Shown here: positions 21,778 through 59,092 of the stretch, one piece after another
Position numbering within the stretch: position 1 is the first letter of the stretch
How the letters are laid out: every line of letters begins with the position of its first letter
Origin: a virus
IMG/VR virus record: IMGVR_UViG_3300038760_000071
Location: 16,260 to 80,259 of that record
DNA length: 64,000 bases
Strand: one strand, 5' to 3'
The notes under the pieces: model-generated
Told to the model about the DNA's origin: nothing
Seen by the model: the letters and a program-made list of their open reading frames with translations, nothing else
The model's database searches: none
Program-made: the position numbers and the translations under genes

Positions 21778-23266
21778 CTAAAGGCTCATATCCAAACATT
21801 GATAGCTCATTCATATCATCTTGAGCTTGATCAGCACCCATACCGAAAACTATAGGCGGTAAGCAAGAATTATTATCACCCACTATTTCATTATCTAAAT
21901 ATAAAGATGTTGCATCTTCAAAATATTGAATACCGAAATCCATTTGTTCAATAGTAGCAGGTTTACCTCGCTCATCTAGTTCCACAATTTCAAAAAATCT
22001 TTCTGTTATTTCTTTCTCTAGAATGAACAGAGCGTATAGCAATGACATCACTCTATCATCATGATGACTTCTCCTAGCCTTCCATGTACCGTTTGGCCAT
22101 CGAACAAAATTCTTAAGCTCAGTTAAAGTTTCTATATCATTAATCTGAACTGCTCGTACATCATTAATAAAATATCGCATGTTTAATACACCCTGATATT
22201 TTGTATTAGTATGAGCAATCATACCTAGCATTATATTTTTCCTATGAGCCGCTTTATTACCATATGATACAATTTTCTCATATCCCATATCATTCGCTAA
22301 CCTATCTACAACTTGTGCACCACAATTATTACGCTCAATTAATGCCAACGGCATGCCGTAGTTACGGAGAACAGAATATACCTTAGTTGCAAATTCAAGA
22401 GGAGGTATTTTATTGCTAGTATAACAAGCAACCTGCCGTATATCTTTAATATCTGTTATATCTAATATTTGTATACATGATGAGTCGGCACCAACACCCT
22501 CCGCTGTATCAACACCAGCAACATAAACACGTGATGGGTCTGCCTCTTCCCATATCTTATAATGACCATCATCTAAAATAATTTTTGGATCTCGAGTCTT
22601 AGAAACCATCTCCTCAAATAAATCATCATCAATTGATGATTCACCTGTTGATAAAAATTCGCAATTAAATTCTTGTCTCCACGCATCATTTGATCCAATT
22701 GCCTGTCTAGTAGATTTAACCCAATCATCATCTCTATCCGGCACTTCATGCCACATAATTTTATCATGCGCCCAGCCATTTTCACCATCCACTGCACCCT
22801 TATATAATGTATGAAATAGATTATCATTACCATTTGCGGTACTACATACAAATACCTTGGATTTCTTCGACGATGTAATTACTGGAAAAACTGACTTCCA
22901 AAACTCCTCAATTAGGTGAGTGTTATGGGAGAGAATACCGTTAGTATAATACTTATGCGTCCTCTCAACCTCAACAAAATCATAAACCTTCTCTTCACGA
23001 CCAATATCAATAATATCAACAACCTCACATAGACCATCTACAGTTTTAATTCTATGACCTATTGAATCACATGCAAGAATAACATCCCCAGCTGCATCAA
23101 TAAACCCATGGTTTTTAGATACGTGTATATAATCACCGTTATCTAAAACAACTTGAAATAGCTTCTTCTTTGAATATTCAGCAATACCCTTAAAGTCTCT
23201 CCAACCCTCATCTGTTTCTATTTCCCATTCATCATTAGGAATGAATCTTTCTATATCTTCTCGCAT
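21773..23266 (-). CDS. terL: Terminase large subunit, C-terminal fragment with split-intein C-half
   Basis: 497 aa. Residues 1-115 are an intein C-terminal half (block B-like HVSKNHGF, block F KVYDFVEVERTHKYYTNG, ending ILSHN). Residues 116-497 are terminase: THLIEEFWKSVFPV follows the Walker B strand directly, then the coupling motif STANG, and the RNase-H-like nuclease domain with acidic sites in GVDTAEG and HHDDRVMSLLYALF. Joined to the other fragments, the mature protein would be about 565 aa, near T4 gp17 (610). The ORF start overlaps the upstream endonuclease gene by 16 bp. The fragment cannot work without trans-splicing because it lacks the ATPase motifs. Confidence 0.92.
   Translation of the reverse strand: MREDIERFIPNDEWEIETDEGWRDFKGIAEYSKKKLFQVVLDNGDYIHVSKNHGFIDAAGDVILACDSIGHRIKTVDGLCEVVDIIDIGREEKVYDFVEVERTHKYYTNGILSHNTHLIEEFWKSVFPVITSSKKSKVFVCSTANGNDNLFHTLYKGAVDGENGWAHDKIMWHEVPDRDDDWVKSTRQAIGSNDAWRQEFNCEFLSTGESSIDDDLFEEMVSKTRDPKIILDDGHYKIWEEADPSRVYVAGVDTAEGVGADSSCIQILDITDIKDIRQVACYTSNKIPPLEFATKVYSVLRNYGMPLALIERNNCGAQVVDRLANDMGYEKIVSYGNKAAHRKNIMLGMIAHTNTKYQGVLNMRYFINDVRAVQINDIETLTELKNFVRWPNGTWKARRSHHDDRVMSLLYALFILEKEITERFFEIVELDERGKPATIEQMDFGIQYFEDATSLYLDNEIVGDNNSCLPPIVFGMGADQAQDDMNELSMFGYEPLA
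22922..23266 (-). other. Split intein, C-terminal half (IntC-b, 115 aa)
   Basis: Ends ...NGILSHN followed by extein Thr+1. Partner of the 30-residue N-half at 24438-24527. It contains intein blocks B, F and G, so the split lies early, between blocks A and B, as in the AceL-TerL type of atypically split inteins. Confidence 0.85.
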
Positions 23267-24426
23267 AAGTCTTCTTTTGTTATTATCTTAAAAGCATAAT
23301 CATTCTCTCTACACCACAATCGAGCTGCTTCAAACTTCGACTGATTCAAAGGTTGATTTACAAACTCACGTGGCTTTACCTCGTATAATACTTTATTTAC
23401 CTGATCACAAAAATCGACAATGTAAACTCGTTCCTTATTATCATATGTGTAAGGAATTCGAATTAATTCATAATCTAAATGAGGATTATTTTCATGAAAC
23501 ATTACCTCCCAACTACTACGATAATTATTAAGTCCAGTTAACTCTGAATATAACTTTTTATTGGAATATCTGTTGTTTGTATTTGGTGTAAATTCTCCGG
23601 TTAAAATCTTATTCCTCATAACATCGCTCATCTTTTTATATATTCCCCTAGCTCTATTTTTTTTTGTGAGTTTATCTCTCTTATCTTTTGTCCACGTCTT
23701 CTTATTTGACGTAGATATCTTGCTTTTTGTTGTTTCGCTATGATGGTATCCCCTACGAGATTTCACTCTCCGCTCTTTAACATCACCAGATTGCAAATAA
23801 GACAAATCACGATCCTTCCCAATAGTACTCAAAACATCACTAATACATCGCTTCTTACTACACGTTTTATTCAAGAAGAATGTATTCCTATTTTTAAAGC
23901 TGCAATAATCACCACATATACAGTATATTGAATCATTACACATACTTGCAAATTTATATTTAATATCCTCAATACCTTCTGTATGTTTAGATATATTGTG
24001 AATTAAGTCCTTATCATTTAGCAATGATGTATAGGCTGCTCGTTGAACATAGTCAGATAATCGTAGCATCGTCTCATCCGGAGGCATTGATATACCATCT
24101 TCAAAGATACCATCTTTTAATCTATCAATAAAGGATGCAATTGACTTTCCACTAAACGACACACCACCTTTAACATAGCCACGTTTATAGCTAATAAACT
24201 TCAAGTCTGGTAGGTAGTCGACATCATTAACTATATGATATAACTTTTGACCGAGTGGTAGCTCATCTAACGTAGGTGTATCTCTATAATACTCATTTAT
24301 AAAATTATAAACCTTCTCACCATCTTCGTATTTATCATACCATGCTCTATAATATGAGTTTTTATTAAGCTTCTTATCCTCAAAGAAATCAACTATACAT
24401 GACTGCATATAACGTTTATCGATCAT
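23251..24426 (-). CDS. Free-standing homing endonuclease-like protein, PD-(D/E)xK type
   Basis: 391 aa. A Cys cluster (YCICGDYC...CSKKRC) is followed by a NUMOD-like DNA-binding motif (SRRGYHHSETTKSKIS) and a C-terminal nuclease domain with SWEVMFHENN, VYIVDF and YEVKP, i.e. a D...ExK active site as in Vsr/TnsA-like and EDxHD homing enzymes. It lies exactly between the two halves of a split intein in terL, the arrangement known from 'fractured genes'. Late promoter CATAAATA 5 nt from the ATG. It probably cuts intein-less or unsplit terL alleles. Confidence 0.75.
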   Translation of the reverse strand: MIDKRYMQSCIVDFFEDKKLNKNSYYRAWYDKYEDGEKVYNFINEYYRDTPTLDELPLGQKLYHIVNDVDYLPDLKFISYKRGYVKGGVSFSGKSIASFIDRLKDGIFEDGISMPPDETMLRLSDYVQRAAYTSLLNDKDLIHNISKHTEGIEDIKYKFASMCNDSIYCICGDYCSFKNRNTFFLNKTCSKKRCISDVLSTIGKDRDLSYLQSGDVKERRVKSRRGYHHSETTKSKISTSNKKTWTKDKRDKLTKKNRARGIYKKMSDVMRNKILTGEFTPNTNNRYSNKKLYSELTGLNNYRSSWEVMFHENNPHLDYELIRIPYTYDNKERVYIVDFCDQVNKVLYEVKPREFVNQPLNQSKFEAARLWCRENDYAFKIITKEDLCEKI

Positions 24427-24431
24427 ATATT

Positions 24432-24439
24432 TATTTATG
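24432..24439 (-). promoter_or_regulatory. Late promoter CATAAATA (endonuclease)
   Basis: 5 nt from the ATG at 24426; overlaps the stop of the middle terL fragment. Confidence 0.6.
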
Positions 24440-24902
24440 TCTTTTGGATAATATTCTCAATACTTCTTGTGACTATCTCCCCTGTATTTTTATTACGTAG
24501 CCTTACTGTAGTATCTTTAGACACACACTCAATGAAAGCCATCTCATCAATCACTAAGCATTGATGACTTAATACACCGTTAGCGTAATATGTATGAGTT
24601 TTCTCAACTTCTAGCAGCTCGTATACTTTACTATCATCAGTGTAAGTGGCAATATCGGTAATTTCAATACCACCATATAATTTATTTTTAATTAAAAGAT
24701 CTTTTGCATAAACGATCTCCTCGTTTTCTGCTAACAGTTTATGTAGAGGTGTACATATTAACTCTTTATCACTAGAGAGTGTGAGTTTAATTTTTGAAGG
24801 GTTACTACCGATTATAAGCCCTTTAAAGTCTCTGAAACCGTCGTTTGTTAGTACTTGATATTTGCTATTTTTAAAGCATTTATATTTTGTTAAGTCTGCC
24901 AT
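24435..24902 (-). CDS. terL: Terminase large subunit, middle fragment: IntC - 11-aa extein - IntN
   Basis: 155 aa, of which 144 are intein. Residues 1-114 are an intein C-half (block B ICTPLHKLL, block F KVYELLEVEKTHTYYANG, ending VLSHQ). Residues 115-125, CLVIDEMAFIE, are the terminase Walker B strand with the catalytic DE, aligning with YIDECAFIP of T4 gp17. Residue 126 onward (CVSKDTTVRLRNKNTGEI...) is the N-half of the next split intein. The product must splice at both ends to donate 11 residues. No ordinary late octamer is present; AATAAAATA-like sequence lies 5 nt upstream. Confidence 0.88.
   Translation of the reverse strand: MADLTKYKCFKNSKYQVLTNDGFRDFKGLIIGSNPSKIKLTLSSDKELICTPLHKLLAENEEIVYAKDLLIKNKLYGGIEITDIATYTDDSKVYELLEVEKTHTYYANGVLSHQCLVIDEMAFIECVSKDTTVRLRNKNTGEIVTRSIENIIQKT
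24438..24527 (-). other. Split intein, N-terminal half (IntN-b, 30 aa)
   Basis: Starts with Cys1 right after extein ...AFIE and ends at the ORF stop. Contains block A only. Confidence 0.82.
24528..24560 (-). other. 11-residue central extein of TerL
   Basis: CLVIDEMAFIE, the Walker B strand of the packaging ATPase, bounded by HQ^C on one side and E^C on the other. Confidence 0.85.
24561..24902 (-). other. Split intein, C-terminal half (IntC-a, 114 aa)
   Basis: Ends SHQ before extein Cys+1: the usual terminal Asn is replaced by Gln, a known but less common variant. Partner of the 42-residue N-half at 25787-25912. Confidence 0.82.
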
Positions 24903-24906
24903 CTTA

Positions 24907-25731
24907 CTATTTTATTTTTGTTTCGAGATTTGTACCTCTTTTTGGGAAGCATTTAGGACAAGCGGGTCTATGACCAATAGATAAATCATGATAAAATCTA
25001 GCGTCACACTCTTGACATACCCATTTATATTTTTTATACAGTGCAACTCCGTTATACGTCTCATCCAACTTAACGTTATAATCTGTCTCAATTTTAGAGA
25101 TTAATTTAACTTGCTTTGTAAAAATGGCGCGCTGCGTAATAGCCTCAGATTGCATTGGGTTATCTACACCATATTTTTCATTCAATGTCTTTCGAGCTTT
25201 ATTTTTATAATCTTCAGTCTGAAAAAAGTGATCAACACCGTATTTTAAGTTATTATGTTTAACTCGTGTTGTCTTAAGCTTAGATATATCGCTACACGTT
25301 TTATTACTCCATGTATTAATCACTTTACTTTTAAAATCCTCGCTCTGCTGGTATATCTCGCTCCCGTATTTCTCCTGGTTGGTTGCCTTACTATGTGATT
25401 GACCGGCTTTTGATTGCAACCAAGACGTTGCACCATATTTCTCTATATTAGTTAATTTAATCTCCTCAACATTATATTTATTACTACATTTACGACAACA
25501 AAACTTACCATACCCGGATTTAAAATCCCGGTATTTGAGAATACTATTACACTGCATGCATGTTGGTGTCTCTGATATATTATGACACACATTATACGCA
25601 TTACGAGCAAATGTTAACTCAGAGTCATATAGTTCATGTTGCTTTATAAATGTCACTTCATCACCGTGGAGATATTTCGGAAAAACCTTAGGTATATTTG
25701 TAAGCGTTAATAGTACACTATTCACATCCAT
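24907..25731 (-). CDS. Free-standing homing endonuclease-like protein with zinc fingers and KYG repeats
   Basis: 274 aa from the ATG at 25731, which is chosen because AATAAATA lies exactly 5 nt upstream; an ATG 93 bp further upstream would run inside terL-N. It has an N-terminal four-Cys finger (CMQCN...FCCRKC), four repeats of the type EKYGVDNPMQSEA between them, and a C-terminal finger (CQECD...CPKC). Such KYG/NPxQ repeats occur in phage homing-endonuclease-like proteins. It sits between the halves of the other split intein. The catalytic site is not identified. Confidence 0.65.
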   Translation of the reverse strand: MDVNSVLLTLTNIPKVFPKYLHGDEVTFIKQHELYDSELTFARNAYNVCHNISETPTCMQCNSILKYRDFKSGYGKFCCRKCSNKYNVEEIKLTNIEKYGATSWLQSKAGQSHSKATNQEKYGSEIYQQSEDFKSKVINTWSNKTCSDISKLKTTRVKHNNLKYGVDHFFQTEDYKNKARKTLNEKYGVDNPMQSEAITQRAIFTKQVKLISKIETDYNVKLDETYNGVALYKKYKWVCQECDARFYHDLSIGHRPACPKCFPKRGTNLETKIK

Positions 25732-25736
25732 AATAG

Positions 25737-25744
25737 TATTTATT
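25737..25744 (-). promoter_or_regulatory. Late promoter AATAAATA (endonuclease)
   Basis: 5 nt from the ATG at 25731; decides the start. Confidence 0.55.
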
Positions 25745-25783
25745 ACCCAATTGGGTAAAGCCACCGGTAAAGGTATTATATTT

Positions 25784-27478
25784 TTAATTGTCCAGGAATA
25801 TAGGAAGTAACTCCCCACCTTCAAATTCAGCTGCTAACTCCTCCATGGAGCAATCAAATGTTAACCCAGTTTCTTTATCTTTCAACGTTATTATTGTCTC
25901 CCCGTCGACACAGTTGACGGATTGGCCACGGGCTGCTGACCCGGTCGTAGTAGTAATACCTATACGAGAGCCATTCTCAAGGGTCATGGACGTTTTGGCA
26001 TATTCTTTAACAGGCGGCTTAAGCCAGTTAGGTAGTTCCTCATATGCCATCCGAACTCTTTGAAATATTTCAATCGCAGTAGCTTCTTTGTTAGCTACTA
26101 GCAATATTCGCTGATCTGCATTAAAGCATGCTTGCCAGAGGATATAAATTGTCATCATTGTCGAGTTGTGAGTAGGTATATACTGATTACCTGCGAGAAA
26201 TTGCGAATCTTCACTATCAACAGTTATACACCTAACAGGAACCGATTCAACAAGCTCTATATTCTTTATAAAGTGATACTGCCCCCTTATTTTAAAGTTA
26301 TGCTTCTTCTCTTGATGCTTTATTCTTTTCTGCTTAAACGATAATAGAGCTACATCTTCAATTGGTTTAAATGTTATAGATGAGCATGGCTTACATTCCA
26401 CACCATTAAGTGTCGGTATATAGTCTTTTAATGTAACCTTATACCCTAGACTTTCAGTTAACTGCTTTACCTGTCTAGTGAGATTCTTATTTGTGTTATA
26501 AAACTGACATGTACCTGCTTTATTTATATAGCCATCACTATCAACTAAACCTTGCAGTAACTGTAATCGTTGCTCTCTACTCGCTAACATATAATCAACG
26601 GGTATATGTTTATTATTGAGTAAGTTATTATGTCTTAATAACGAACTAAGACTCTTTGTTTGTATATCAGACTCAACAGTAGGGCGAATAAAATAATTTT
26701 TCGAATTGTAGTTTTTAATAATAAGCTTATCAAATTGCTCTATCTTATCAAATATTTTAATCTGTTCGTCTATATCTCTATGACCAACTGTTATTGTACC
26801 GGTAGCAGATGTACCATCACCTAACCACAAGCCTAGGACATAGGGATGTATAGGTAATTCTTTCTCTATACCCCCAACACCATTAATACATGTTGGTATT
26901 CTGTGATTAGGCTCAGGTCTCTTCTTACCACTATATAGTGTGTCTAAAATATCTCTTGTTGTCTTAACTGACCCACTACACTCCTTTCTACGATCACCCC
27001 TCGTCTGAGTAAACCATAAATGATCACCATCTGCAACTATCTCCTCCCCGTTATCAAATGTTACTTTATAACAGTCACGATCATATAATACATCATGCGC
27101 TTTTAAAACACTACACTGATCACCCTTATTATCGTATATAACATCACCAGATTTAATAGACCCCATATCCATCCACCCGGTTGGTGTTGGTATTGGTGTA
27201 TCTAATGCTAGTGCCTTACCTATCTGTCTACTTGCTAGCTGTATAAAGAATCGATTATCTCTCATCTTACGGATGGCTCGCTTTTGAGCAGGATATAGCT
27301 TAATAGTCTCACGCCCACGATCAAGATTAATAATATAGAAATAATTTTCAGCAAAATAGAGTATATTCTGACTCGCTTTCTTAAGCGCGTTCACTTGCGA
27401 TGTAGTATATTCACCTTTCCAGTTAACATTTGGTAGGTTTTTGTTACCCATGTAGAACATATTACTTTGCTGAGCCAT
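25784..27478 (-). CDS. terL: Terminase large subunit, N-terminal fragment with class-3-like intein and split-intein N-half
   Basis: 564 aa. Residues 1-88: N-extein ending ...LASRQIGK, the start of the Walker A. Residues 89-438: a contiguous 350-aa intein. Residues 439-522: extein STMMTIYILW..., which completes Walker A as SRQIGKST (T4 gp17 has SRQLGKTT), continuing to TGSAARGQSVN. Residues 523-564: Cys1-initiated N-half of a split intein that ends at the ORF stop. The Walker B strand and nuclease domain are encoded in two other ORFs. TATAAATA lies 6 nt from the ATG. The ORF yields no active ATPase without one cis- and two trans-splicing events. Confidence 0.93.
   Translation of the reverse strand: MAQQSNMFYMGNKNLPNVNWKGEYTTSQVNALKKASQNILYFAENYFYIINLDRGRETIKLYPAQKRAIRKMRDNRFFIQLASRQIGKALALDTPIPTPTGWMDMGSIKSGDVIYDNKGDQCSVLKAHDVLYDRDCYKVTFDNGEEIVADGDHLWFTQTRGDRRKECSGSVKTTRDILDTLYSGKKRPEPNHRIPTCINGVGGIEKELPIHPYVLGLWLGDGTSATGTITVGHRDIDEQIKIFDKIEQFDKLIIKNYNSKNYFIRPTVESDIQTKSLSSLLRHNNLLNNKHIPVDYMLASREQRLQLLQGLVDSDGYINKAGTCQFYNTNKNLTRQVKQLTESLGYKVTLKDYIPTLNGVECKPCSSITFKPIEDVALLSFKQKRIKHQEKKHNFKIRGQYHFIKNIELVESVPVRCITVDSEDSQFLAGNQYIPTHNSTMMTIYILWQACFNADQRILLVANKEATAIEIFQRVRMAYEELPNWLKPPVKEYAKTSMTLENGSRIGITTTTGSAARGQSVNCVDGETIITLKDKETGLTFDCSMEELAAEFEGGELLPIFLDN
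25787..25912 (-). other. Split intein, N-terminal half (IntN-a, 42 aa)
   Basis: Starts CVDGETIITLKDKETG directly after extein RGQSVN and runs to the stop. Contains block A only; block B and later are in the ORF at 24435-24902. Confidence 0.82.
26165..27214 (-). mobile_element. Contiguous intein in Walker A, class 3 (WCT) with LAGLIDADG endonuclease
   Basis: 350 aa. It begins with Ala1 (ALALDTPIPTPTGW), not Cys/Ser, and carries the class 3 triad: Trp two residues after the block B His (GDHLW), Cys in block F (VRCITVDSEDSQFLAG) and Thr in block G (YIPTHN), with Ser+1. Class 3 inteins use the block F Cys as first nucleophile. Two LAGLIDADG-type motifs (VLGLWLGDG; LLQGLVDSDGYI) about 90 residues apart form a homing endonuclease. 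Insertion splits Walker A between Lys and Ser, a highly conserved site. Confidence 0.9.
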
Positions 27479-41756: not shown

Positions 41757-42158
41757 ATGGCTATTAACTTTAAGCGATTGGAGAAGATAACGAGAAGTCT
41801 TAAACCAATTTGCCAATCTGGCAAATCCTTTCACGCAACGTTTGTCTATAGAAAAAACAAGCTTGTATGTACCGCGTATAATAATTATAAAAAGCAACAC
41901 CCATATTATAAATTTGGTACTTACAAATCCACAAAACGGGGTAGTGTAAATTATATACCAGGTATACACTCAGAGGTAGCTGCATTACTAAAAATGGGTA
42001 GAGTAGACTGCTCAAATTTAACATTTATAAATGTTCGGATTGATAATTCGAATAATGTAGCGATCTCAAAGCCGTGTCCTAACTGTCAAAGACTGTTAGA
42101 TAGTATAGGTTATAAAAAAATATGGTATTATACTGGTAATAAATATATTTGCTGTTAA
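41757..42158 (+). CDS. Cytidine/dCMP-deaminase-fold protein
   Basis: 133 aa. HSE (71-73) and PCPNC (106-110) form the HxE...PCxxC zinc site of the cytidine deaminase superfamily; the segment LTFINVRI between them is the usual beta-alpha unit. It could deaminate dCMP for thymidylate synthesis (with dUTPase and ThyX) or act on RNA/DNA bases. Shorter than T4 Cd (193 aa) and without the extra zinc finger. Confidence 0.8.
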   Translation: MAINFKRLEKITRSLKPICQSGKSFHATFVYRKNKLVCTAYNNYKKQHPYYKFGTYKSTKRGSVNYIPGIHSEVAALLKMGRVDCSNLTFINVRIDNSNNVAISKPCPNCQRLLDSIGYKKIWYYTGNKYICC

Positions 42159-42161
42159 ATA
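42154..42161 (+). promoter_or_regulatory. Late-type promoter GTTAAATA
   Basis: 5 nt from the ATG at 42167; spans the preceding stop codon. Confidence 0.45.
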
Positions 42162-42166
42162 TAGGT

Positions 42167-42631
42167 ATGGGTACAAATAATAGATTATCATGGTGGCGCC
42201 GCATCCAACGTTTCTTTAACTGGTATAGGTCACCATCACCGCCGCGATATATATCACCATCACTTACGTCATCATCGACGCAGGTTATATCACCATCATC
42301 GACACCATCATTGACACCATCATTGACACCACCATCATCGACCCCGGTTATATCACCATCATCGACCCCGGTTATATCACCATCATTGACACCACCATCA
42401 TCGACCCCGGTTATATCACCATCAATGGCACACCCAATAGCACCACCATCGACGCCGGTACCGGCGATATCTACACCCATCTCACCAGTATTAGGTGCGT
42501 GTATTAATGAGATTACAAGTAGAACTACGGTAGGTGCATGTGCACATGAATCTGCTAGAGTATCTGTGCTAGGAGTTAATATACATAATTTGTCTAAGCA
42601 AAATACAGCTGGTTATAGTGACTGGTACTAA
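42167..42631 (+). CDS. Pro/Ser/Thr-repeat protein
   Basis: 154 aa. A Trp/Arg-rich N-terminus (LSWWRRIQRFFNWYR) is followed by repeated SSTPVISPS/TPSLTPP units (residues ~25-110), then a short ordered end. The start at 42167 follows a late-type promoter at 5 nt. The sequence resembles a flexible linker; possibly a virion or envelope protein. Not recognised. Confidence 0.55.
   Translation: MGTNNRLSWWRRIQRFFNWYRSPSPPRYISPSLTSSSTQVISPSSTPSLTPSLTPPSSTPVISPSSTPVISPSLTPPSSTPVISPSMAHPIAPPSTPVPAISTPISPVLGACINEITSRTTVGACAHESARVSVLGVNIHNLSKQNTAGYSDWY
42272..42424 (+). repeat. Short tandem repeats in Pro/Ser/Thr gene
   Basis: Units of tatatcaccatcatcgaccc type recur four to five times, prone to slippage. 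Confidence 0.75.
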
Positions 42632-49387: not shown

Positions 49388-49876
49388 ATGACAGCACACC
49401 ATAGGCAACAACTACTATTTAGTAATATTTTTCAAGTAGCTAGCAATATAAACGAAATAGTAGCTGGTAGTTTTTCCGGTCACCTCATTTGGTCTGAGAT
49501 TTATAACAACACTACTGATTTAATACCTAGTAGGCTCGTCTCAAACCGGGGTGAAGCGTTTAATATAACACAACCTGAAAGGGAACTCCTATATAATATA
49601 TATATGAGCGTCGTCGGTTGGATAATCAAATGGACATGTGGGTTAGTGTTGCTGATAACCACTCTCATCTGGATAACAGGCTGGTTAATTTTGATCTGGG
49701 CCACCATCGGCTTGAATCCCATAGAAGTGCGTCCGGATAACTCCCAACCTATACAACACTCTGTAGAGTATAATGCAGAGGTAGAGATAATATCCCCTGT
49801 TATTGTAGGTGCACCTAAGAAAAGCAAAGTATCAAACATTTACAACAACCCTAAACTACCACCAAGAAAGAACTAA
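49388..49876 (+). CDS. Fused ORF: upstream 72-residue part reading into a membrane protein
   Basis: 162 aa. AAGGAG lies 4 nt before the ATG, one of the few real Shine-Dalgarno sequences here. Residues 73-162 have two hydrophobic helices. An early promoter module sits in frame at 49582-49597, but with CCTA instead of CTGA it lacks the usual TGA, so the upstream frame reads through (...RELLYNIYM). The gene is best explained as two cassettes fused by this change, with the short form still made from the internal promoter. Confidence 0.5.
   Translation: MTAHHRQQLLFSNIFQVASNINEIVAGSFSGHLIWSEIYNNTTDLIPSRLVSNRGEAFNITQPERELLYNIYMSVVGWIIKWTCGLVLLITTLIWITGWLILIWATIGLNPIEVRPDNSQPIQHSVEYNAEVEIISPVIVGAPKKSKVSNIYNNPKLPPRKN
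49582..49597 (+). promoter_or_regulatory. Early promoter GGAACTCCTATATAAT internal to an ORF
   Basis: 6 nt from an in-frame ATG at 49604; the variant removes the in-frame stop. Confidence 0.65.
49604..49876 (+). CDS. Small two-helix membrane protein (nested, 90 aa)
   Basis: Starts SVVGWIIKWTCGLVLLI; second hydrophobic stretch WITGWLILIWATIG. The promoter spacing of 6 nt supports this start. Unknown; holin-like topology is possible. Confidence 0.6.
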   Translation: MSVVGWIIKWTCGLVLLITTLIWITGWLILIWATIGLNPIEVRPDNSQPIQHSVEYNAEVEIISPVIVGAPKKSKVSNIYNNPKLPPRKN

Positions 49877-50066: not shown

Positions 50067-50255
50067 ATGCAAATCACAGGAGACCATAATATATCCACTA
50101 AACTTAGAAATAGTATCACCGATTTACATTTGCGTGTGGCTGATAAGGTATATGAACATGTTACAGAAGAGGTTTGGTACGATACCCGTTCTAATGTTTG
50201 GCACACTGTACTGGTTAGCGTTCGAGACAGCATACGTGATGTGTTAGACAGATGA
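50067..50255 (+). CDS. Divergent first member of V-W-x-E repeat gene family
   Basis: 62 aa. VADKVYEHVTEEVWYDTRSN shows the V-x-x-x-V spacing in weaker form. No clear promoter module. Its stop overlaps the next ATG (ATGA). Confidence 0.5.
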   Translation: MQITGDHNISTKLRNSITDLHLRVADKVYEHVTEEVWYDTRSNVWHTVLVSVRDSIRDVLDR

Positions 50256-50281
50256 AAGTAGGGAACATATATAATACAGAT

Positions 50282-50494
50282 ATGAAAGTAGGTGATATAT
50301 CTTATGAGATACGTAATAAAATGCAGGGCGAAGTGGGGTTTGAGTTGTGGGATAAGGTATTGTGCGAGGTAGGAGATGATGTATGGGATGAGGTCTGGCA
50401 AGAGGTCTGGCATGAGGTGGGGCGATCGGTGAGGTTTGGGCTAAAGGATGTGATAGATTATAATGTAGGGAACTCTAGCATAATAAGGTTATGA
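50282..50494 (+). CDS. V-W-x-E repeat protein 2
   Basis: 70 aa from the ATG at 50282 (TATAAT 6 nt upstream; an ATG at 50252 is outside). N-terminus KVGDISYEIRNKMQGEVGFE is paralogous to the 51333 gene; then DVWDEVWQEVWHEV. Confidence 0.65.
   Translation: MKVGDISYEIRNKMQGEVGFELWDKVLCEVGDDVWDEVWQEVWHEVGRSVRFGLKDVIDYNVGNSSIIRL
50469..50484 (+). promoter_or_regulatory. Early promoter GGAACTCTAGCATAAT
   Basis: 6 nt from the ATG at 50491; overlaps the end of repeat protein 2. Confidence 0.65.
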
Positions 50495-50679
50495 TTTTAA
50501 AGGAGGTAAGATATAAAGTATGGAACAAAATATGGCGTAAGGTAGAGAATGAGGCTCGGCAAACGATACAGGGTAAGGTAATACACGAGCTTTGGAATGA
50601 AGTAGAGGATGCGGTAGAGTATAGCCACTACATAGCAGATACGGTAGAAGATAAGATAAGAAACTCTACCATAACATAG
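50491..50679 (+). CDS. V-W-x-E repeat protein 3
   Basis: 62 aa; EVRYKVWNKIWRKVENE then a less regular part. C-terminus RNSTIT is translated from the next promoter. Confidence 0.65.
   Translation: MILKEVRYKVWNKIWRKVENEARQTIQGKVIHELWNEVEDAVEYSHYIADTVEDKIRNSTIT
50660..50675 (+). promoter_or_regulatory. Early promoter variant GAAACTCTACCATAAC
   Basis: 6 nt from the ATG at 50682; two substitutions in the -10. Confidence 0.5.
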
Positions 50680-50681
50680 AT

Positions 50682-50852
50682 ATGAATTTAACTAGTATAT
50701 GGTGTGAGGTAGAGGATGAGGTAGAGGATGGGGTAGAGGAAGAGGTATGGCGTGAGGCATGGCGCGCGGTGGAGCATAAGGTATGGTATGAGGCCACTCA
50801 TGAGATGAGAAGTACGGTAAGAGATAGGGTAAGGAACTCTGATATAATATAG
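50682..50852 (+). CDS. V-W-x-E repeat protein 4
   Basis: 56 aa, MNLTSIWCEVEDEVEDGVEE... ending VRNSDII, the promoter-coded tail with TAG stop at 50850-50852. Confidence 0.65.
   Translation: MNLTSIWCEVEDEVEDGVEEEVWREAWRAVEHKVWYEATHEMRSTVRDRVRNSDII
50833..50848 (+). promoter_or_regulatory. Early promoter GGAACTCTGATATAAT followed by a broken cassette
   Basis: 6 nt from an ATG at 50855 that is followed at once by GAA TGA; only ~30 bp of the next cassette remains. Confidence 0.7.
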
Positions 50853-50854
50853 AT

Positions 50855-50884
50855 ATGGAATGAGGTAGAAGATGCTGTATAGAT
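50855..50884 (+). pseudogene. Truncated repeat-gene cassette
   Basis: Start codon, then frameshifted remains of a V-E-D-A-V repeat (gaggtagaagatgctgtat) running straight into the start of the 50885 gene. Confidence 0.6.
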
Positions 50885-51073
50885 ATGAATTTAGAAGAGT
50901 TTAGGTATGAGATAGGGAACAAAATACGGCACAAGTTACAGCATGCGGCTTATTATAAGTTAGTGAGTAGTATAAGGGGTGAAGTAGGGCATGAGATATC
51001 AAGCAAGGTAAGGGTTGAGGTATGGGGCAAGGTATGTAATAAGGTAGAACATGCGGTATGTAATAAGGTATAG
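50885..51073 (+). CDS. V-x-x-x repeat protein 5
   Basis: 62 aa, MNLEEFRYEIGNKIRHKLQH... EVWGKVCNKVEHAVCNKV. It has lost its own promoter in the upstream deletion and may rely on 50833-50848. Confidence 0.55.
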   Translation: MNLEEFRYEIGNKIRHKLQHAAYYKLVSSIRGEVGHEISSKVRVEVWGKVCNKVEHAVCNKV

Positions 51074-51099
51074 CATGCGGGTTGGGCGAACAGCTTTAA

Positions 51100-51105
51100 C
51101 ATAAT
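51100..51105 (+). promoter_or_regulatory. Early -10 variant CATAAT
   Basis: 6 nt from the ATG at 51112; decides that start over the ATG at 51106. Confidence 0.5.
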
Positions 51106-51111
51106 ATGAGT

Positions 51112-51330
51112 ATGGGAATAGATATGAATTTAGCTGGAGTAAGGAGAGAGTTGGTGGCCAAAGTAAGGCATGAGTTGCGGGGTGAGATAAGGAGTATGGT
51201 GAAGGATGAGGTATGGGGTGAGGTAAGAGATAACATATGGAGTGGGGTAGAGAACGAGATATGGAATGAGGTAAGGCGTAATGTATGGAACAGGGCATGG
51301 AATGAGGTGAGGAGCTCTAATATAATATAG
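51112..51330 (+). CDS. V-W-x-E repeat protein 6
   Basis: 72 aa; contains EVRRNVWNRAWNEV, coded by the block shared identically with the 52122 gene. Ends RSSNII. Confidence 0.65.
   Translation: MGIDMNLAGVRRELVAKVRHELRGEIRSMVKDEVWGEVRDNIWSGVENEIWNEVRRNVWNRAWNEVRSSNII
51311..51326 (+). promoter_or_regulatory. Early promoter GGAGCTCTAATATAAT
   Basis: 6 nt from the ATG at 51333. Confidence 0.65.
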
Positions 51331-51332
51331 AT

Positions 51333-51527
51333 ATGAGAGTAGATCAGATATCGTATGAGCTGTGTAGTAAAATGCAGGTAGAGTTAGGGGCTAAGTTATG
51401 GGATAAAGTATTGAGTAGGGTAGAAGATGCTGTATGGAGTGAGGTATGGGTTAAGGTAGAAGATGCTGTATGGGGTGAGGTTTGGGATAAGGTAGAGCGT
51501 AAGGTAAGGAACTCTAATATAATATAG
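51333..51527 (+). CDS. V-W-x-E repeat protein 7
   Basis: 64 aa; N-terminus RVDQISYELCSKMQ pairs with repeat protein 2. Ends VRNSNII. Confidence 0.65.
   Translation: MRVDQISYELCSKMQVELGAKLWDKVLSRVEDAVWSEVWVKVEDAVWGEVWDKVERKVRNSNII
51508..51523 (+). promoter_or_regulatory. Early promoter GGAACTCTAATATAAT
   Basis: 6 nt from the ATG at 51530. Confidence 0.75.
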
Positions 51528-51529
51528 AT

Positions 51530-51880
51530 ATGAATTTGAATGAGATACAGTGTAAGGTGGAGGATAAGGTATGGGATGAGATCTGGGATAAGGTATGGGA
51601 TGAGATCTGGGATGAGGTAAGGGGTGAGGTAGGGGATAAGGTATGGGGTGAGATATGGGATGAAGTATGGGGTGAGGTAGAGGTTAAGGTAAGGGATGAA
51701 GTATGGGATGAAGTATGGGATGAAGTATGGGATGGGGTATATGATATCATCTGGGGTGAGGTATATGATAACATATTGAATGAGATATGGGATAAGGTAA
51801 GGTGGGGAGTAGAAGATAAGGTAAGGGGTGAGGTATTTGATAAGGTAGGGCGTAAGATAAGGAACTCTAATATAATATAG
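51530..51880 (+). CDS. V-W-x-E repeat protein 8 (longest)
   Basis: 116 aa with about 25 consecutive 4-residue units (e.g. KVWDEIWDKVWDEIWDEV). If helical, Val/Ile at every fourth position form a slowly rotating hydrophobic stripe with Trp beside it, suited to oligomer or membrane contact. No known enzyme motif. Confidence 0.7.
   Translation: MNLNEIQCKVEDKVWDEIWDKVWDEIWDEVRGEVGDKVWGEIWDEVWGEVEVKVRDEVWDEVWDEVWDGVYDIIWGEVYDNILNEIWDKVRWGVEDKVRGEVFDKVGRKIRNSNII
51861..51876 (+). promoter_or_regulatory. Early promoter GGAACTCTAATATAAT
   Basis: 6 nt from the ATG at 51883. Confidence 0.75.
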
Positions 51881-51882
51881 AT

Positions 51883-52119
51883 ATGAATAAGGTATGGGAT
51901 AAGGTAGGGGATGAGATGGAGGATAAGATAAGGGATAAGGTAAGGGATGAGGTATGGGGTGAGGTAGAGCGTAAGGTATGGGGTGAGGTAAGGGATAAGG
52001 TAAGGTATAAAGTAAGGGATGAGGTATGGGGTGAGATAAAGTGTAAAGTATTTAATAAGGTAGAAGATGCTGTATGGGGTGAGATATGGGATGAGGTAAG
52101 GAACTCTGATATAATATAG
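51883..52119 (+). CDS. V-[WR]-x-[EK] repeat protein 9
   Basis: 78 aa, MNKVWDKVGDEMEDKIRDKV..., almost entirely repeats. Ends VRNSDII. Confidence 0.65.
   Translation: MNKVWDKVGDEMEDKIRDKVRDEVWGEVERKVWGEVRDKVRYKVRDEVWGEIKCKVFNKVEDAVWGEIWDEVRNSDII
52100..52115 (+). promoter_or_regulatory. Early promoter GGAACTCTGATATAAT
   Basis: 6 nt from the ATG at 52122. Confidence 0.75.
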
Positions 52120-52121
52120 AT

Positions 52122-52319
52122 ATGAATTTGAATACGAAGATAGGGTATAAGATATGGAATGAGGTAAGGCGTAATGTATGGAACAGGGCATGGAATGAGG
52201 TATGGTACGAGGTAAGGGATGAGGTAAGAGAAGAAGTATGGGGTAAGGTAAGGTATGAGGTAGGGGGTGAGGTAGGGGGTAAGGTAGAGCGTAAGATAAG
52301 GAACTCTGATATAATGTAG
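52122..52319 (+). CDS. V-W-x-E repeat protein 10
   Basis: 65 aa; NLNTKIGYKIWNEVRRNVWN; shares the 52-bp block with repeat protein 6. Ends IRNSDIM because the -10 reads ATAATG. Confidence 0.65.
   Translation: MNLNTKIGYKIWNEVRRNVWNRAWNEVWYEVRDEVREEVWGKVRYEVGGEVGGKVERKIRNSDIM
52300..52315 (+). promoter_or_regulatory. Early promoter GGAACTCTGATATAAT
   Basis: 6 nt from the ATG at 52322. Confidence 0.75.
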
Positions 52320-52321
52320 AT

Positions 52322-52471
52322 ATGAATTTGAATGAGGTAGGGAGTGAGGTATGGGGTGAGGTAGAGCGTAAGGTAAGGGATAAGGTAGAAGATGCTGTAT
52401 GGGGTGAGATATGGGATAAGGTAAGGGATAAGGTAAGGTATAAGATAGGTAACACTGATATATCGATATAA
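52322..52471 (+). CDS. V-W-x-E repeat protein 11 (49 aa)
   Basis: MNLNEVGSEVWGEVERKVRD... ends IGNTDISI because the next promoter has decayed and shifted the stop. Stop TAA at 52469-52471. Confidence 0.6.
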   Translation: MNLNEVGSEVWGEVERKVRDKVEDAVWGEIWDKVRDKVRYKIGNTDISI

Positions 52472-52530
52472 ATTTGAATACGAAGATAGGGTATGGGGTA
52501 TGTAATAAGGTAGAGTTTAGTAAAGTTATA
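52466..52530 (+). pseudogene. Decayed repeat-gene cassette at the array end
   Basis: AAATTTGAATACGAAGATAG matches the start of repeat protein 10, but the start codon is ATA and the preceding -10 reads TATATC. No ORF remains. Confidence 0.65.
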
Positions 52531-52673
52531 GTAAATTTATAAAAACGTATAATAATGGTGGATGGTTAAGAGATGGCTAAGTTATTAACTATAAACATGC
52601 TATAACTAAAAGGTGAGGTGTATAAATGTTTAAATACAGAAATAGTTAGAGATCATCTAAATATAAATAGAGT
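52531..52673. other. Short non-coding stretch after the array
   Basis: AT-rich; no ORF, promoter module or hairpin seen. Confidence 0.4.
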
Positions 52674-53354
52674 ATGAAAAAATATGTAAGAAGATACCCG
52701 ACAAAATACCGATATAATCAAATGGGATTATCGAAAGAGACAGGCTATTTTAAATACGTGGATGTTAATATATGTGCTGGATGCGCGGTAGCGAGCGCGT
52801 GTCAATCTCTATTAGATGTGCGTGGATACAATGCAATAGGTGACTATGCTCTAGGAATATATGAGCGCGCGAAGAAAGCGATCGGATCTCAGAGAACCGG
52901 TCTTCGAATATATCCCGCAGTGACTGAAGCAATATATACATTCAATGAAGAGAAGCGATATATAGATATTACAGCTACTAAGTTGGCGCCGCGAAGTAAG
53001 TCTCTGAGAGATCATCTACTCAATAATGGCACCGCGGTCGCTGGATTCCGATGGTATGAAGGTATGATGTATCCTACACCTATTATCCCACCAAATACTC
53101 CATGGTATCGTCGTATATGGTACCATCTCAGAGCCCCACGATATGCATCAGCCTCCGGAGACATTGCAGGTTATCATGCAGCAGCCGTGATGGGTGTAGA
53201 TGATCATAAGCAAGCATTTGTAATACAGAACTCATACGGGTTAGGCTACGGTAATAAAGGCAATGTCTATATGAAGTATGATGACTTCGACGCATCATGC
53301 GTCCAAGCTTATGGTTTTGACACTGTGGAGGAAAGAAAAGGAACTCTGATATAA
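52674..53354 (+). CDS. Papain-like cysteine protease
   Basis: 226 aa. Residues 34-42 CAGCAVASA correspond to papain CGSCWAFSA, giving catalytic Cys37; His168 in GYHAAAVMG and Asn186 in FVIQNSYG complete the C1A triad, with GYGNKGNVYMKYDDF as the usual end. No signal peptide, so it would act in the cytoplasm or virion. Cleavage target unknown; candidates are host or phage proteins. The C-terminus -KGTLI and TAA are read from the next promoter. Confidence 0.8.
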   Translation: MKKYVRRYPTKYRYNQMGLSKETGYFKYVDVNICAGCAVASACQSLLDVRGYNAIGDYALGIYERAKKAIGSQRTGLRIYPAVTEAIYTFNEEKRYIDITATKLAPRSKSLRDHLLNNGTAVAGFRWYEGMMYPTPIIPPNTPWYRRIWYHLRAPRYASASGDIAGYHAAAVMGVDDHKQAFVIQNSYGLGYGNKGNVYMKYDDFDASCVQAYGFDTVEERKGTLI

Positions 53355-53355
53355 T
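53340..53355 (+). promoter_or_regulatory. Early promoter GGAACTCTGATATAAT
   Basis: 6 nt from the ATG at 53362; supplies GTLI and TAA to the protease gene. Confidence 0.8.
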
Positions 53356-53361
53356 ATAGAT

Positions 53362-54039
53362 ATGATGAAACAGAAAGCTCCGATACTAAGCGCGGTTACC
53401 GCGCCGCGGCGATGGGTGACGAGGAATAATCTCAAACTAAATATGAATCGTCTAGCAGTGTTGTTGTTTTTTGCAACATTCGCTAACCAGTGGTCGATCG
53501 GTCAATCAGTTAAACTGGCTTGGGACGCTAGCGAAGATGAACGTGTAACAAGCTACCAAGTGAGGTATGGCACTTCAAGTAGCGTCCATCCATCGATGGT
53601 CGACGTGGGGAAAAACACCACAGCAACCATTACGGGCTTATCCTTCAGTGTTGATTACTACTTTGTGGTGTATGCTCTCACCGCTTCAGGCCTGATAAGC
53701 CTACCGTCTAACGAAGTCTATACCATCGTAGAGCCGCCGCCTTCATCGCGCGCCTATATAGGCTATCATATACGGATTCAGACGTCAGGGGAGTTTGAAC
53801 TCCAGCAGTCTGTAGACATGGTTAACTGGATTACGGTAAAGCAGGCAAGTGACTATTTGGATATAGTGATTCCAACCTCAGGTGTACACCGATCCTTTTA
53901 CCGAGTCACGCCATGGAACGGAGAAACTCTCTTCGAAGGTAGGTCATTTTACATTAACCAAACTAACTCGAGTGTAGACGATCATAAGCAAGCATTTGTA
54001 ATTCAGAACTCATACGGCTTCGACACAAAGGAACTCTGA
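53362..54039 (+). CDS. Secreted Fn3-domain protein, chimeric 3' end
   Basis: 225 aa. A 27-residue N-terminal extension precedes a signal peptide (MNRLAVLLFFATFANQ). Then an Fn3 domain (KLAWDASEDERVTSYQVRYG ... YYFVVYALTASGLISLPSNE) and a beta domain with LQQSVDMVNW ... SFYRV, a pattern frequent in Verrucomicrobia secreted proteins. The last 20 residues (VDDHKQAFVIQNSYG...) duplicate the protease gene just upstream, with an internal deletion. Base composition is richer in G+C than neighbours. Probably host-derived DNA inserted beside a second protease copy. Confidence 0.75.
   Translation: MMKQKAPILSAVTAPRRWVTRNNLKLNMNRLAVLLFFATFANQWSIGQSVKLAWDASEDERVTSYQVRYGTSSSVHPSMVDVGKNTTATITGLSFSVDYYFVVYALTASGLISLPSNEVYTIVEPPPSSRAYIGYHIRIQTSGEFELQQSVDMVNWITVKQASDYLDIVIPTSGVHRSFYRVTPWNGETLFEGRSFYINQTNSSVDDHKQAFVIQNSYGFDTKEL
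53972..54017 (+). repeat. Copy of protease-gene segment (direct repeat with 53194-53239)
   Basis: 44 of 46 positions identical to 53194-53239. Confidence 0.9.
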
Positions 54040-54045
54040 TATAAT
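54030..54045 (+). promoter_or_regulatory. Early promoter GGAACTCTGATATAAT
   Basis: 6 nt from the ATG at 54052; supplies -KEL and TGA to the Fn3 gene. Confidence 0.8.
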
Positions 54046-54051
54046 ATAGAT

Positions 54052-54384
54052 ATGAAAGCAACCGGTGCACGTTTTAAAGTACGGCATAAATTATGGAATA
54101 GGGTCAGGGGATCGATACAGAGTGGTGTGTGGGAAGAGGTAAAGAAGGCCGTCCAGGACCTGGTACATAATAGAATACCGAACAAGGTTCAGAACAAGGT
54201 ACAGAATAAAGGCCATAATGAGATATATCATGATGTAGAAGATGATGTATGGAATAAGGTATATAAGAGGGTAGAAGATAAGGTATGGAATAATGTATGG
54301 AATAAGCTACATAATACTGGAATAGCCTCAACGAAAAAGGCACTCAAAAGGAACTCTGATATAATAGATATACAGAAGAGATAA
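54052..54384 (+). CDS. Distant V-W-x-E repeat protein 12
   Basis: 110 aa. Same period-4 pattern (DVWNKVYKRVEDKVWNNVWN) outside the main array. Its C-terminus runs through the orphan promoter at 54350 (…RNSDIIDIQKR). Confidence 0.65.
   Translation: MKATGARFKVRHKLWNRVRGSIQSGVWEEVKKAVQDLVHNRIPNKVQNKVQNKGHNEIYHDVEDDVWNKVYKRVEDKVWNNVWNKLHNTGIASTKKALKRNSDIIDIQKR
54350..54365 (+). promoter_or_regulatory. Orphan promoter GGAACTCTGATATAAT with lost start codon
   Basis: Perfect module, but the expected ATG at +1 is ATA, and the upstream frame reads through to 54384. Confidence 0.6.
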
Positions 54385-54422: not shown

Positions 54423-54773
54423 ATGAGCAACCAACCTAACAAAACACCTGGCGTTATTCTACACGGTGAAGCAATGATCTTCCAATCTCCCATTCCAGAA
54501 GGAGCTACAGAGATCAAATCATCCTCCACTAATATGCACATCATTGCAGATTCTGAGACTACCGGTAACCACCACGTTATCGATACTGTGCCAGGTACTA
54601 AGTACTTTAAACACGGTGATACAATGTACATGGAGAACACAAATGAGACCCGTGTGAGGTGCGTTCTAGCTGATCGTCACGATGCTATTACACTTGATCC
54701 TGGTACGTGGGAGTTTGGAATTCAAAAAGAATTTGATCATCTAACTCAACAGTTACATAATGTAGCTGACTGA
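54423..54773 (+). CDS. Small hypothetical protein
   Basis: 116 aa. VILHGEAMIFQSPIPEGATE, then HIIADSETTGNHHVID; beta-rich, seen in outline in other phages but without known function. Confidence 0.65.
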   Translation: MSNQPNKTPGVILHGEAMIFQSPIPEGATEIKSSSTNMHIIADSETTGNHHVIDTVPGTKYFKHGDTMYMENTNETRVRCVLADRHDAITLDPGTWEFGIQKEFDHLTQQLHNVAD

Positions 54774-55676: not shown

Positions 55677-56645
55677 ATGAAAAAGATTACTAAAATGACC
55701 GAGGAGGAGCATGCGAAAATGCCTGAGTATGTAGAGAAGTGGATCAAGATCGGGACTGATACTACCCGGCTGGATCCAGCTACCACGGAGAAGATTGTTA
55801 ATAACATTCGAAACCTGATTGATATGGAGCCGGGTGTACCGTGTTTGATTGTCGATAACCCTATTGAGGCTTGGGTAATGTCATACCTATCTCTTAAGCA
55901 AGGTGTGGCTATAGAGGATTTACATTCTGAGATGGTAAGTATCTTTAATGGTAACCCGAAGAAGTACGACGTCCCACGATGTGAACTTCCATGGATGACT
56001 GGATCGTTCTTTGCCTCTACGTTTGCCTTTTACGACTTTATGATTGAAGAGCTTGGTGTAGAGTTAGAGAAAGAGCTCTGGACAAAGTATAAGATATGGG
56101 AAGCTTCGTCCTGTCTTGGGTGTGTATATCCTCTAGATAGTTGTACGATCGTTAGTCAAAAGCCTAAGACCGTCTTCCTACAAGATGGCAAGCTTCATAA
56201 GGACGGTGAGCCAGCTCTAACATATGATGGTTTAGGTGAGTTAGTGATCTGGTCGTTAAATGGTGTTGAGGTACCGGAGTGGCTCGCTAAGACGTCCGCG
56301 CAGGATCTTACACTAGATGATTATAGCAAACTAGATAACGCGGACGTTAAAGCTGAGTTCGTACGTAAGGTTGGTATTGAGCGCTTTATTGATCAGGGTA
56401 AGATAGTCGATTCATTCAACGAGTATGATATTGCTACTCATGAGTGGTGGCACAAGTCTGAGTACGAGCTCGTAGATATGAACTCGTTGTTTAGTACATT
56501 AGACTACGCACCATATCTTAAGATGGTTAATCAGACAACTGGCATTTTCCATATGGAGGGTGTGTCGCCATCATGTCGAACAGTTGGTGAAGCTCTTAAA
56601 GAGCGCTTCGGTGGTAAGGATTTCGTTATCAACTCAATCGCCTAA
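55677..56645 (+). CDS. DUF6745-like protein
   Basis: 322 aa. FASTFAFYDFMIEELGVE, then DGEPALTYDGLGELVIWSLN, VEVPEWLAK and NADVKAEFVRKVGIERFI, with a late YAPYLKMVNQTTG segment, follow the order I remember for DUF6745 proteins (xxAFYDF ... VPEWV ... N.E.R...G.ERF). Those proteins often carry V-W-x-x repeats N-terminally; here the repeats exist as separate genes 3-5 kb upstream. Role unknown; leadered promoter suggests strong expression. Confidence 0.6.
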   Translation: MKKITKMTEEEHAKMPEYVEKWIKIGTDTTRLDPATTEKIVNNIRNLIDMEPGVPCLIVDNPIEAWVMSYLSLKQGVAIEDLHSEMVSIFNGNPKKYDVPRCELPWMTGSFFASTFAFYDFMIEELGVELEKELWTKYKIWEASSCLGCVYPLDSCTIVSQKPKTVFLQDGKLHKDGEPALTYDGLGELVIWSLNGVEVPEWLAKTSAQDLTLDDYSKLDNADVKAEFVRKVGIERFIDQGKIVDSFNEYDIATHEWWHKSEYELVDMNSLFSTLDYAPYLKMVNQTTGIFHMEGVSPSCRTVGEALKERFGGKDFVINSIA

Positions 56646-58512: not shown

Positions 58513-58522
58513 GTTTTAAAAA

Positions 58523-58538
58523 GGAAATCTGATATAAT
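58523..58538 (+). promoter_or_regulatory. Early promoter GGAAATCTGATATAAT
   Basis: 6 nt from the ATG at 58545. Confidence 0.8.
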
Positions 58539-58544
58539 AATAGT

Positions 58545-58811
58545 ATGCAAGTAATTAATAAAGAAAGTAAGATGAAAGAAGTAGTTGTTGTTGGATATGA
58601 GGAGATTGGATTCGAGTTTAGTTTATGTGATGAGTTATATGAAGATGGGTGTGGAAAAGATATTGAAGGTAGGTTTTTAGATGTAGAATTTTTAAAGATT
58701 ATGTTTGACAGTAGGTTGGAGAATGAAGAGGATACATCTAAAATTGATAAGATTGATGATATGTTAGTAAGTATTAAGGATTTGAATAATGAAGTGTTAG
58801 TTGAGTTTTAA
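58545..58811 (+). CDS. Hypothetical acidic protein
   Basis: 88 aa; starts QVINKESKMK, shared with the 58892 gene (KVINKESKMK), so the two cassettes exchanged or duplicated 5' ends. Confidence 0.6.
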   Translation: MQVINKESKMKEVVVVGYEEIGFEFSLCDELYEDGCGKDIEGRFLDVEFLKIMFDSRLENEEDTSKIDKIDDMLVSIKDLNNEVLVEF

Positions 58812-58827
58812 TAAGTAAGGGGGAGGA

Positions 58828-58843
58828 GTTCCGAAAGGAACGA
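58828..58843 (+). repeat. Short hairpin with GAAA tetraloop
   Basis: GTTCC-GAAA-GGAAC inside a G-rich spacer; no T-run follows, so it is a weak terminator candidate. Confidence 0.4.
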
Positions 58844-58865
58844 ACCGGGGGGAGTTAGTTAAAAA

Positions 58866-58881
58866 GGAAACCTGATATAAT
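58866..58881 (+). promoter_or_regulatory. Early promoter GGAAACCTGATATAAT
   Basis: 10 nt from the ATG at 58892; AATA is duplicated relative to the standard spacing. Confidence 0.75.
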
Positions 58882-58891
58882 AAATAATAGT

Positions 58892-59092
58892 ATGAAAGTA
58901 ATTAATAAAGAAAGTAAGATGAAGAGAGAAGAAGTTGTTAAGTTGGTTGAAGATTGTAATAAGAAGTTGAGAGAGTTGCGTAAGTTGTATATGAATGATT
59001 TTTTAGATGATGAAGGAGATGAGATTGTTGAGAACTTTTTTTATGAAGTGAGGGATTTGGTTGAGGAGGATTGGGCTTCAGAGGATTATTAG
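58892..59092 (+). CDS. Small acidic protein, paralogue of 63144 gene
   Basis: 66 aa. VVKLVEDCNKKLRELRKLYM followed by NDFLDDEGDEIVENFFYEV is similar to LVNDCYKKFRELNRLYKQDF in the late gene at 63144. Unknown function. Confidence 0.6.
   Translation: MKVINKESKMKREEVVKLVEDCNKKLRELRKLYMNDFLDDEGDEIVENFFYEVRDLVEEDWASEDY

Follow-up and report, generated by a model that had tools for sequence, protein, structure and literature searches.

What does a phage do with eleven tiny genes that stand in tandem and are built from one four-residue repeat? We asked this of a window of 64,000 bases (positions 16,260-80,259 of the 80,259-base virus record IMGVR_UViG_3300038760_000071; coordinates below are those of the window), in which 11 open reading frames (ORFs) of 49-116 amino acids lie between 50067 and 52471 together with decayed modules (50833-50884, after 51073 and after 52450). 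The window encodes, among other things, a tail sheath protein, a sigma factor and Thy1, and the source virus is, judged from its sequence, a phage with a contractile tail that is distantly T4-like. Our tentative answer, drawn by analogy, is that the array may be a tandem family of tetrapeptide-repeat microproteins that forms a tunable early counter-defence or host-takeover set with a DUF6745-like protein. We document the array and its relatives, the alternation of fused and separate repeats beside DUF6745, the conservation of valine at the protein level and the turnover of repeat units. The genomic and evolutionary parts of the answer are well supported; the function is what we infer. The link to DUF6745, the spread of the family and the precedent for a tetrapeptide repeat go beyond a first-pass annotation of this DNA, which had described the array.

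In every one of the 11 ORFs, the best 32-residue stretch has V or I at 7-8 of its 8 fourth positions, and this score was matched in 0-3 of 2000 shuffles of each ORF's own residues. Tandem Repeats Finder (TRF) reported a period of 12 with ~40 copies at 51562-52035. The repeat of the window array is V-W-x-E/K, and the tiny ORFs consist of it almost end to end. Thus, ORF calls, shuffles and TRF bear out the first-pass description of tiny period-4 genes, 11 ORFs plus remnants, 49-116 amino acids long. The extent it gave, 50067-52530, does contain the 11 ORFs and misses a twelfth member at 54052-54384. It had also noted a 52-bp identical block and N-termini shared in pairs, and both were found again; the starts of the ORFs called at 50252 and 51333 have 130 bp in common with 78% identity. 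The members and remnants are listed here, with V/I at period 4 as the evidence for members 2 to 12.

50067..50255, + strand: member 1 (62 amino acids), the most diverged, without the promoter motif; V/I 7/8, matched in 1/2000 shuffles
50282..50494, + strand: member 2; likely start 50282 (TATAAT-N6-ATG), ORF called from 50252
50491..50679, + strand: member 3, decayed promoter (CATAAT)
50682..50852, + strand: member 4, decayed promoter (CATAAC)
50833..50884, + strand: perfect promoter ahead of a dead 2-codon unit (ATG GAA TGA), with a repeat remnant joined to it out of frame
50885..51073, + strand: member 5, without promoter, early stop; read-through remnant to ~51111
51112..51330, + strand: member 6, likely start 51112 (ORF called from 51106), -10 box CATAAT
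51257..51308, + strand: 52-bp block identical to 52150-52201
51333..51527, + strand: member 7, full promoter at 51311
51530..51880, + strand: member 8 (116 amino acids, 13 Trp), promoter at 51508
51883..52119, + strand: member 9 (78 amino acids), promoter at 51861; modelled as a helix by AlphaFold2
52122..52319, + strand: member 10, promoter at 52100
52322..52471, + strand: member 11 (49 amino acids), promoter at 52300
52450..52540, + strand: decayed module recognized by sequence, promoter and ATG mutated, start like that of member 10
54052..54384, + strand: member 12 (110 amino acids, net charge +12), full promoter at 54030, outside the coordinates first noted

For the second and sixth ORFs, the position of the -10 box makes 50282 and 51112 the probable true starts. 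Assembly collapse, which the first-pass annotation had named as a possible source of an artificial array, is unlikely because a second contig, IMGVR_3300038491_000058 (possibly from the same sample), carries the entire array with 2 mismatches in 16.5 kb. A 313-amino-acid antisense ORF (51514-52455) was set aside as a by-product of the stop-free 12-bp repeat. Net charge ranges from -18 to +12 across members, so that DNA mimicry is not a common trait and was rejected. No known family was found for the tiny proteins in Pfam, PHROGs, NCBIfam or PDB sequences (PADLOC was left unsearched), and a Pfam scan of the members at 51530 and 54052 gave no DUF6745 match. A match to P230 in the PDB sequences was dismissed as low-complexity.

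AlphaFold2 modelled the 78-residue member 9 as a single helix (residues 2-74, predicted local distance difference test (pLDDT) 89), suggesting a helical fold for the tiny proteins. Single helices of this kind might assemble together, with the DUF6745-like protein or on a membrane, as a scaffold or tail-associated part, in which case copy number would be dose and variation would be neutral. The helix model and a similarity of array proteins to tape-measure regions in PHROGs fit this alternative, but those matches are weak and low-complexity. The structural genes occupy the first half of the window, mainly on the - strand, and the small genes the + strand from ~32 kb onward; the array stands among the latter, behind a small-gene promoter and away from the former. 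Nonsynonymous changes across arrays are also concentrated at two repeat positions, as described below, and we regard a structural or assembly role as unlikely.

Relatives of the array and turnover of its units

Twelve other phage contigs contain a relative of the 54423 gene, and several of these have arrays of their own; further scans found arrays in at least 20 distinct loci of other uncultured phages. The array-bearing relatives are all metagenomic, and array size runs from 2-4 genes (L012, L019) to ~37-42 (L117/L220 on a 347-kb contig, and L396). Many pattern matches, of the MVGRTVGK and MVKVRVK types, reflected chance or repeats of other kinds, and the array counts exclude them. Isolate phages gave no match to the array proteins searched or to the 54423 protein (gp54423), save one 17% match with an E of 0.1. 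A first scan of genome contigs found no relative; a DNA-pattern scan of genome contigs gave mostly chance matches and a few cellular genomes with repeats only inside larger proteins and no tiny-gene array. Other repeat-rich ORFs of the same phage lie at 42149-42631 of the window and at 2414-5368 of L010 (PSSTPVISPSLTP; TPSITPTPSITP).

In the arrays of other phages the repeat is V-W-x-S, V-x-x-N or V-W-x-Q, and the family consensus is V or I, then W, R, E, G or Y, then D, N, G or S, and last E or K here and S, N or Q in other phages. The DNA unit differs in each related phage (GATTCTGTTTGG, GGCTCAGTTTAT, GATCAGGTGTGG and others), and valine is written mostly as GTA in some phages and as GTT, GTG or GTC in others (~15 arrays). 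Because codon and DNA unit vary between phages while the residue pattern stays constant, the conserved entity is the protein pattern and not the DNA. This speaks against an RNA or DNA element in which the purine-rich 12-bp repeat (GAGGT, resembling the core of a Shine-Dalgarno sequence) would titrate ribosomes or a DNA-binding protein, with incidental reading frames. The two strands of the array are strongly asymmetric, with a GC skew of up to 0.80, and the leaderless promoter class described below would presumably escape anti-Shine-Dalgarno titration; even so, we give such an element only the slightest chance.

Gain and loss of 12-bp units, in-frame, occurs in nature. L208 and L216 (99.4% over 8.4 kb) differ in the array by 12 and 36 bp; otherwise only four single-nucleotide polymorphisms (SNPs) separate them over 8.3 kb, and one SNP replaces W with G at position +1 after the valine. 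Between L351 and L352 the difference is exactly 60 bp (84 vs 64 amino acids), with 0 SNPs in the 1.2 kb around it. Each of the three exact indels (12, 36 and 60 bp) is a multiple of 12 and in-frame, and the changes in these two pairs uphold the first-pass view of a rapidly evolving family with recombination between 12-bp units. In L371 and L372 (~95% identical), the array region measures 2.8 and 1.0 kb, respectively, and gene number has changed. These changes were observed in relatives; the window array itself has a single close relative, whose array is identical.

Across 15 arrays, the per-site nonsynonymous/synonymous count ratio was 0.61 at V, 5.9 at +1, 3.1 at +2 and 1.05 at +3, figures that serve as a pointer only, since they consider single-step neighbours of the dominant codon and count copies rather than events. 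Per-base entropy peaks at bases 1 and 2 of the +1 and +2 codons, and V hardly varies. A selfish or near-neutral expansion, in which 12-bp slippage or duplication proceeds with little function and frames survive as multiples of 3, would agree with the decayed units, dead promoter and lost starts, with the frequency of unit indels among differences between near-identical phages, and with the many DUF6745 loci that have no array. We consider it quite unlikely: one residue pattern is written in different synonymous codons in ~15 arrays, which argues for selection on the protein, start/stop overlaps are kept across dozens of genes, and the arrays are constantly linked to DUF6745 and alternate exclusively with DUF6745 fusions.

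DUF6745-like proteins as candidate partners

Two genes of the window also recur near the arrays of other phages.

54423..54773, + strand: small conserved partner gene (gp54423-like) with an HHV motif, in 52/54 DUF6745-centred loci
55677..56645, + strand: DUF6745-like protein without repeat insert, probable functional partner by profile, alignment and PHROG

The 55677-56645 protein matches the DUF6745 profile at 1.2e-79, being itself one of the profile seeds, and PHROG 31813 at 1.6e-12; alone, it falls below Pfam detection. It aligns with repeat-bearing DUF6745 proteins and lacks their insert. Other phages and some metagenome-assembled genomes carry the same V-x-x-x repeat as an insert within single larger proteins; many of these are DUF6745 proteins (PF20530), and others belong to DUF7666 or an unnamed MCKFFS family. 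Repeats in DUF7666 and MCKFFS proteins were seen in L148, L151, L160, L202 and L249, cellular genomes included. A fold search with a DUF6745 model gave no PDB match below E 0.7.

In the first set of loci, 38 had a fused repeat without an array, 14 an unfused protein with an array, 10 neither and 0 both. A second set, picked by the DUF6745 core alone and so free of selection on repeats, held 20 loci with an unfused protein and an array, 2 with an unfused protein and one tiny gene, 17 with an unfused protein and neither, 6 with a fused repeat and no array, and 0 with both; shared ancestry of loci inflates the counts in both sets. Because fused and separate forms never co-occur in the loci examined, the tiny proteins look like a detached form of the repeat domain carried inside DUF6745 proteins elsewhere. 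When a domain is part of a protein in one lineage and encoded beside it in another, this is classically a sign that the two work together.

Linkage and alternation would also suit peptides that act like antitoxins or as decoys and keep the phage's own DUF6745-like protein neutralised until it is needed, with host defences not the target. However, no toxin signature is known for DUF6745 and a single antitoxin would need no dozen diversifying copies, making this highly unlikely.

Microcystis phage LMM01 and its kin carry distant relatives of the window DUF6745-like protein. In the isolate cyanophage Ma-LMM01 (L394) this relative is gp174, and gp175, just upstream, reads by eye like a homologue of gp54423; no repeat was seen in either gene. 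The pair offers a cultured system for studying DUF6745- and gp54423-like genes.

A promoter shared across the phage

The window contains 35 matches to the motif GGAACTCTGATATAAT, 0 of them on the - strand and nearly all from 36 kb on, and in 25 of the 35 an ATG lies exactly 6 nt past TATAAT. Outside the array, on the + strand at 36-64 kb, TATAAT-N6-ATG occurs 24 times and any other spacing at most 3 times. This pattern indicates that the array promoter is the phage's general small-gene promoter and is not private to the array; between 36400 and 62800 (+), GGAACTCTGATATAAT-N6-ATG would serve ~25 small genes. A TATAAT 6 nt before ATG places the start of transcription on the A of ATG, and leaderless mRNAs are therefore predicted from GGAACTCTGATATAAT-type promoters.

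The first-pass statement that almost each gene of the array has its own promoter holds in part. Full copies precede five of the 11 ORFs (51333, 51530, 51883, 52122 and 52322); 50282 has TATAAT at the same spacing without the upstream motif, the -10 boxes at 50491, 50682 and 51112 are decayed, and 50067 and 50885 have no promoter. Full-promoter modules start 2 nt past the preceding stop codon, and the last codons of the preceding gene (RNSDII*) double as the promoter of the next. The N6 spacing peak is found also in L355 and L360 and is absent from most other array phages.

Recombination between promoter repeats, which had been proposed as a driver, can be inferred for the window array because the well-preserved modules all end in the next promoter and because a 46-bp peptidase 3' end (53194-53239) is repeated, at 96%, at 53972-54017, followed by a promoter, behind an FN3 gene. 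It is not a general driver across the family, because array genes in other phages mostly overlap their successors by 4-17 nt. The peptidase, at 52674-53354 in the neighbourhood of the array, is a papain-like candidate (PHROG 16701). The FN3-domain gene (53362-54039) has a higher GC content and is flanked by the duplicated 46-bp end and by copies of the general promoter, at 53340..53365 (+), before the gene, and at 54030-54055; cassette recombination seems to have inserted it recently.

Elsewhere in the window, a small-gene pair at 58516-58939 with a common promoter and N-terminus (MQVINKESKMK / MKVINKESKMK) is another promoter-linked duplication. An internal TATAAT-N6-ATG at 49582 within the ORF at 49388-49876 points to an additional, leaderless start at 49604 for a membrane protein. 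Among the structural genes, the tail sheath protein (18786-21137, -) has 783 amino acids with a big extra region compared with a typical sheath, and the terminase large subunit region (21773-27478, -) is seemingly split by several intein- or homing-endonuclease-like pieces.

A proposed role and its known counterparts

The tiny proteins would be expressed from the general promoter as leaderless mRNAs, fold as helices and, by analogy, act early and jointly with the DUF6745-like and gp54423-like proteins. They may bind the DUF6745-like protein, with unit number and the variable +1/+2 residues setting the target and parallel copies keeping several settings in one genome. The idea of a repertoire locus, with tens of tandem single-helix genes that pair with the DUF6745 protein and neutralise changing bacterial defences, is possible though doubtful. 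If true, the proposed role would show how phages in general can maintain a stock of adjustable proteins, and DUF6745 and its partner would gain a first testable role.

Several points weigh against this proposal, in addition to the limits of the substitution ratios. BLASTP of Tweety gp54, the analogue discussed below, against an array protein gave a best E of 0.73 and no homology. Seventeen DUF6745 loci have neither repeat form within ~10 kb, and there the repeat is dispensable or located elsewhere. We found no paper on DUF6745 in the literature searched. AlphaFold2 modelled the core of the fused DUF6745 protein of L149 mostly with confidence and its repeat poorly (pLDDT ~31), which is at odds with the confident stand-alone helix, and a strict period of 4 does not give a standard coiled coil.

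The closest analogue, by its mutational signature and without sequence homology, appears to be Tweety gp54. This 375-amino-acid mycobacteriophage protein has 48 tetrapeptide units from a 12-bp repeat, A-A-[GWQ]-[SY], in which codon bases 1 and 2 vary and the third is fixed, and its authors suggested selection for variation (PMC2884959); we recomputed the codon-base pattern here. Later reviews report it as counter-defence, with more or fewer gp54 units in escape mutants facing Phrann or MichelleMyBell prophage defence (PMC9262239, PMC8549241). Like Tweety gp54, Che8 gp57 and PMC gp51, the window family has a 12-bp unit encoding four residues with conserved residue(s) and variable positions, unit numbers that vary between relatives and a site outside the structural genes. 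Change in its units likewise falls on codon bases 1 and 2, but the third base is fixed less strictly than in Tweety. Since signature and unit turnover are shared, we propose that the array serves as a tunable repertoire for counter-defence and has the DUF6745-like protein as its partner. The two differ in that the repeat is A-A-x-x in Tweety and V-x-x-x here, and in that gp54 is one protein with unique N- and C-terminal parts and no array, whereas the window ORFs lack such ends. Repeat-bearing DUF6745 proteins do have unique ends flanking the repeat, as gp54 does; they share the tetrapeptide repeat and locus partners of the arrays but carry the repeat inside one protein, unlike the window's DUF6745-like protein.

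For expression, a -10 box directly ahead of ATG is an established pattern of leaderless genes in Deinococcus-Thermus (PMC12340547). There, as here, the box adjoins ATG without a Shine-Dalgarno leader; here the motif is the phage-wide GGAACTCTGATATAAT, and the host's phylum may be another. In PeSL cassettes of T4-like phages, whose modules are separated by an early promoter with a stem-loop, repeated early promoters were proposed to shuffle small genes, as PMC4503421 cites Arbiol 2010 and Comeau 2014. A possible likeness lies in the repeated promoters between small-gene modules; the window promoter differs in being of a leaderless extended -10 type, and recombination also falls within coding units. 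Archaeal-virus anti-defence genes are likewise many small genes under one conserved early promoter, with multiplied paralogues (PMC11065993). Each small gene stands behind a copy of that promoter, yet the promoters are of the TATA/BRE kind and the protein families are others, so that the analogy concerns organisation alone. Repeat number has been reported to tune a counter-defence protein in one phage group; here a 12-bp unit of the same kind forms whole gene arrays, linked to DUF6745, in many uncultured phages.

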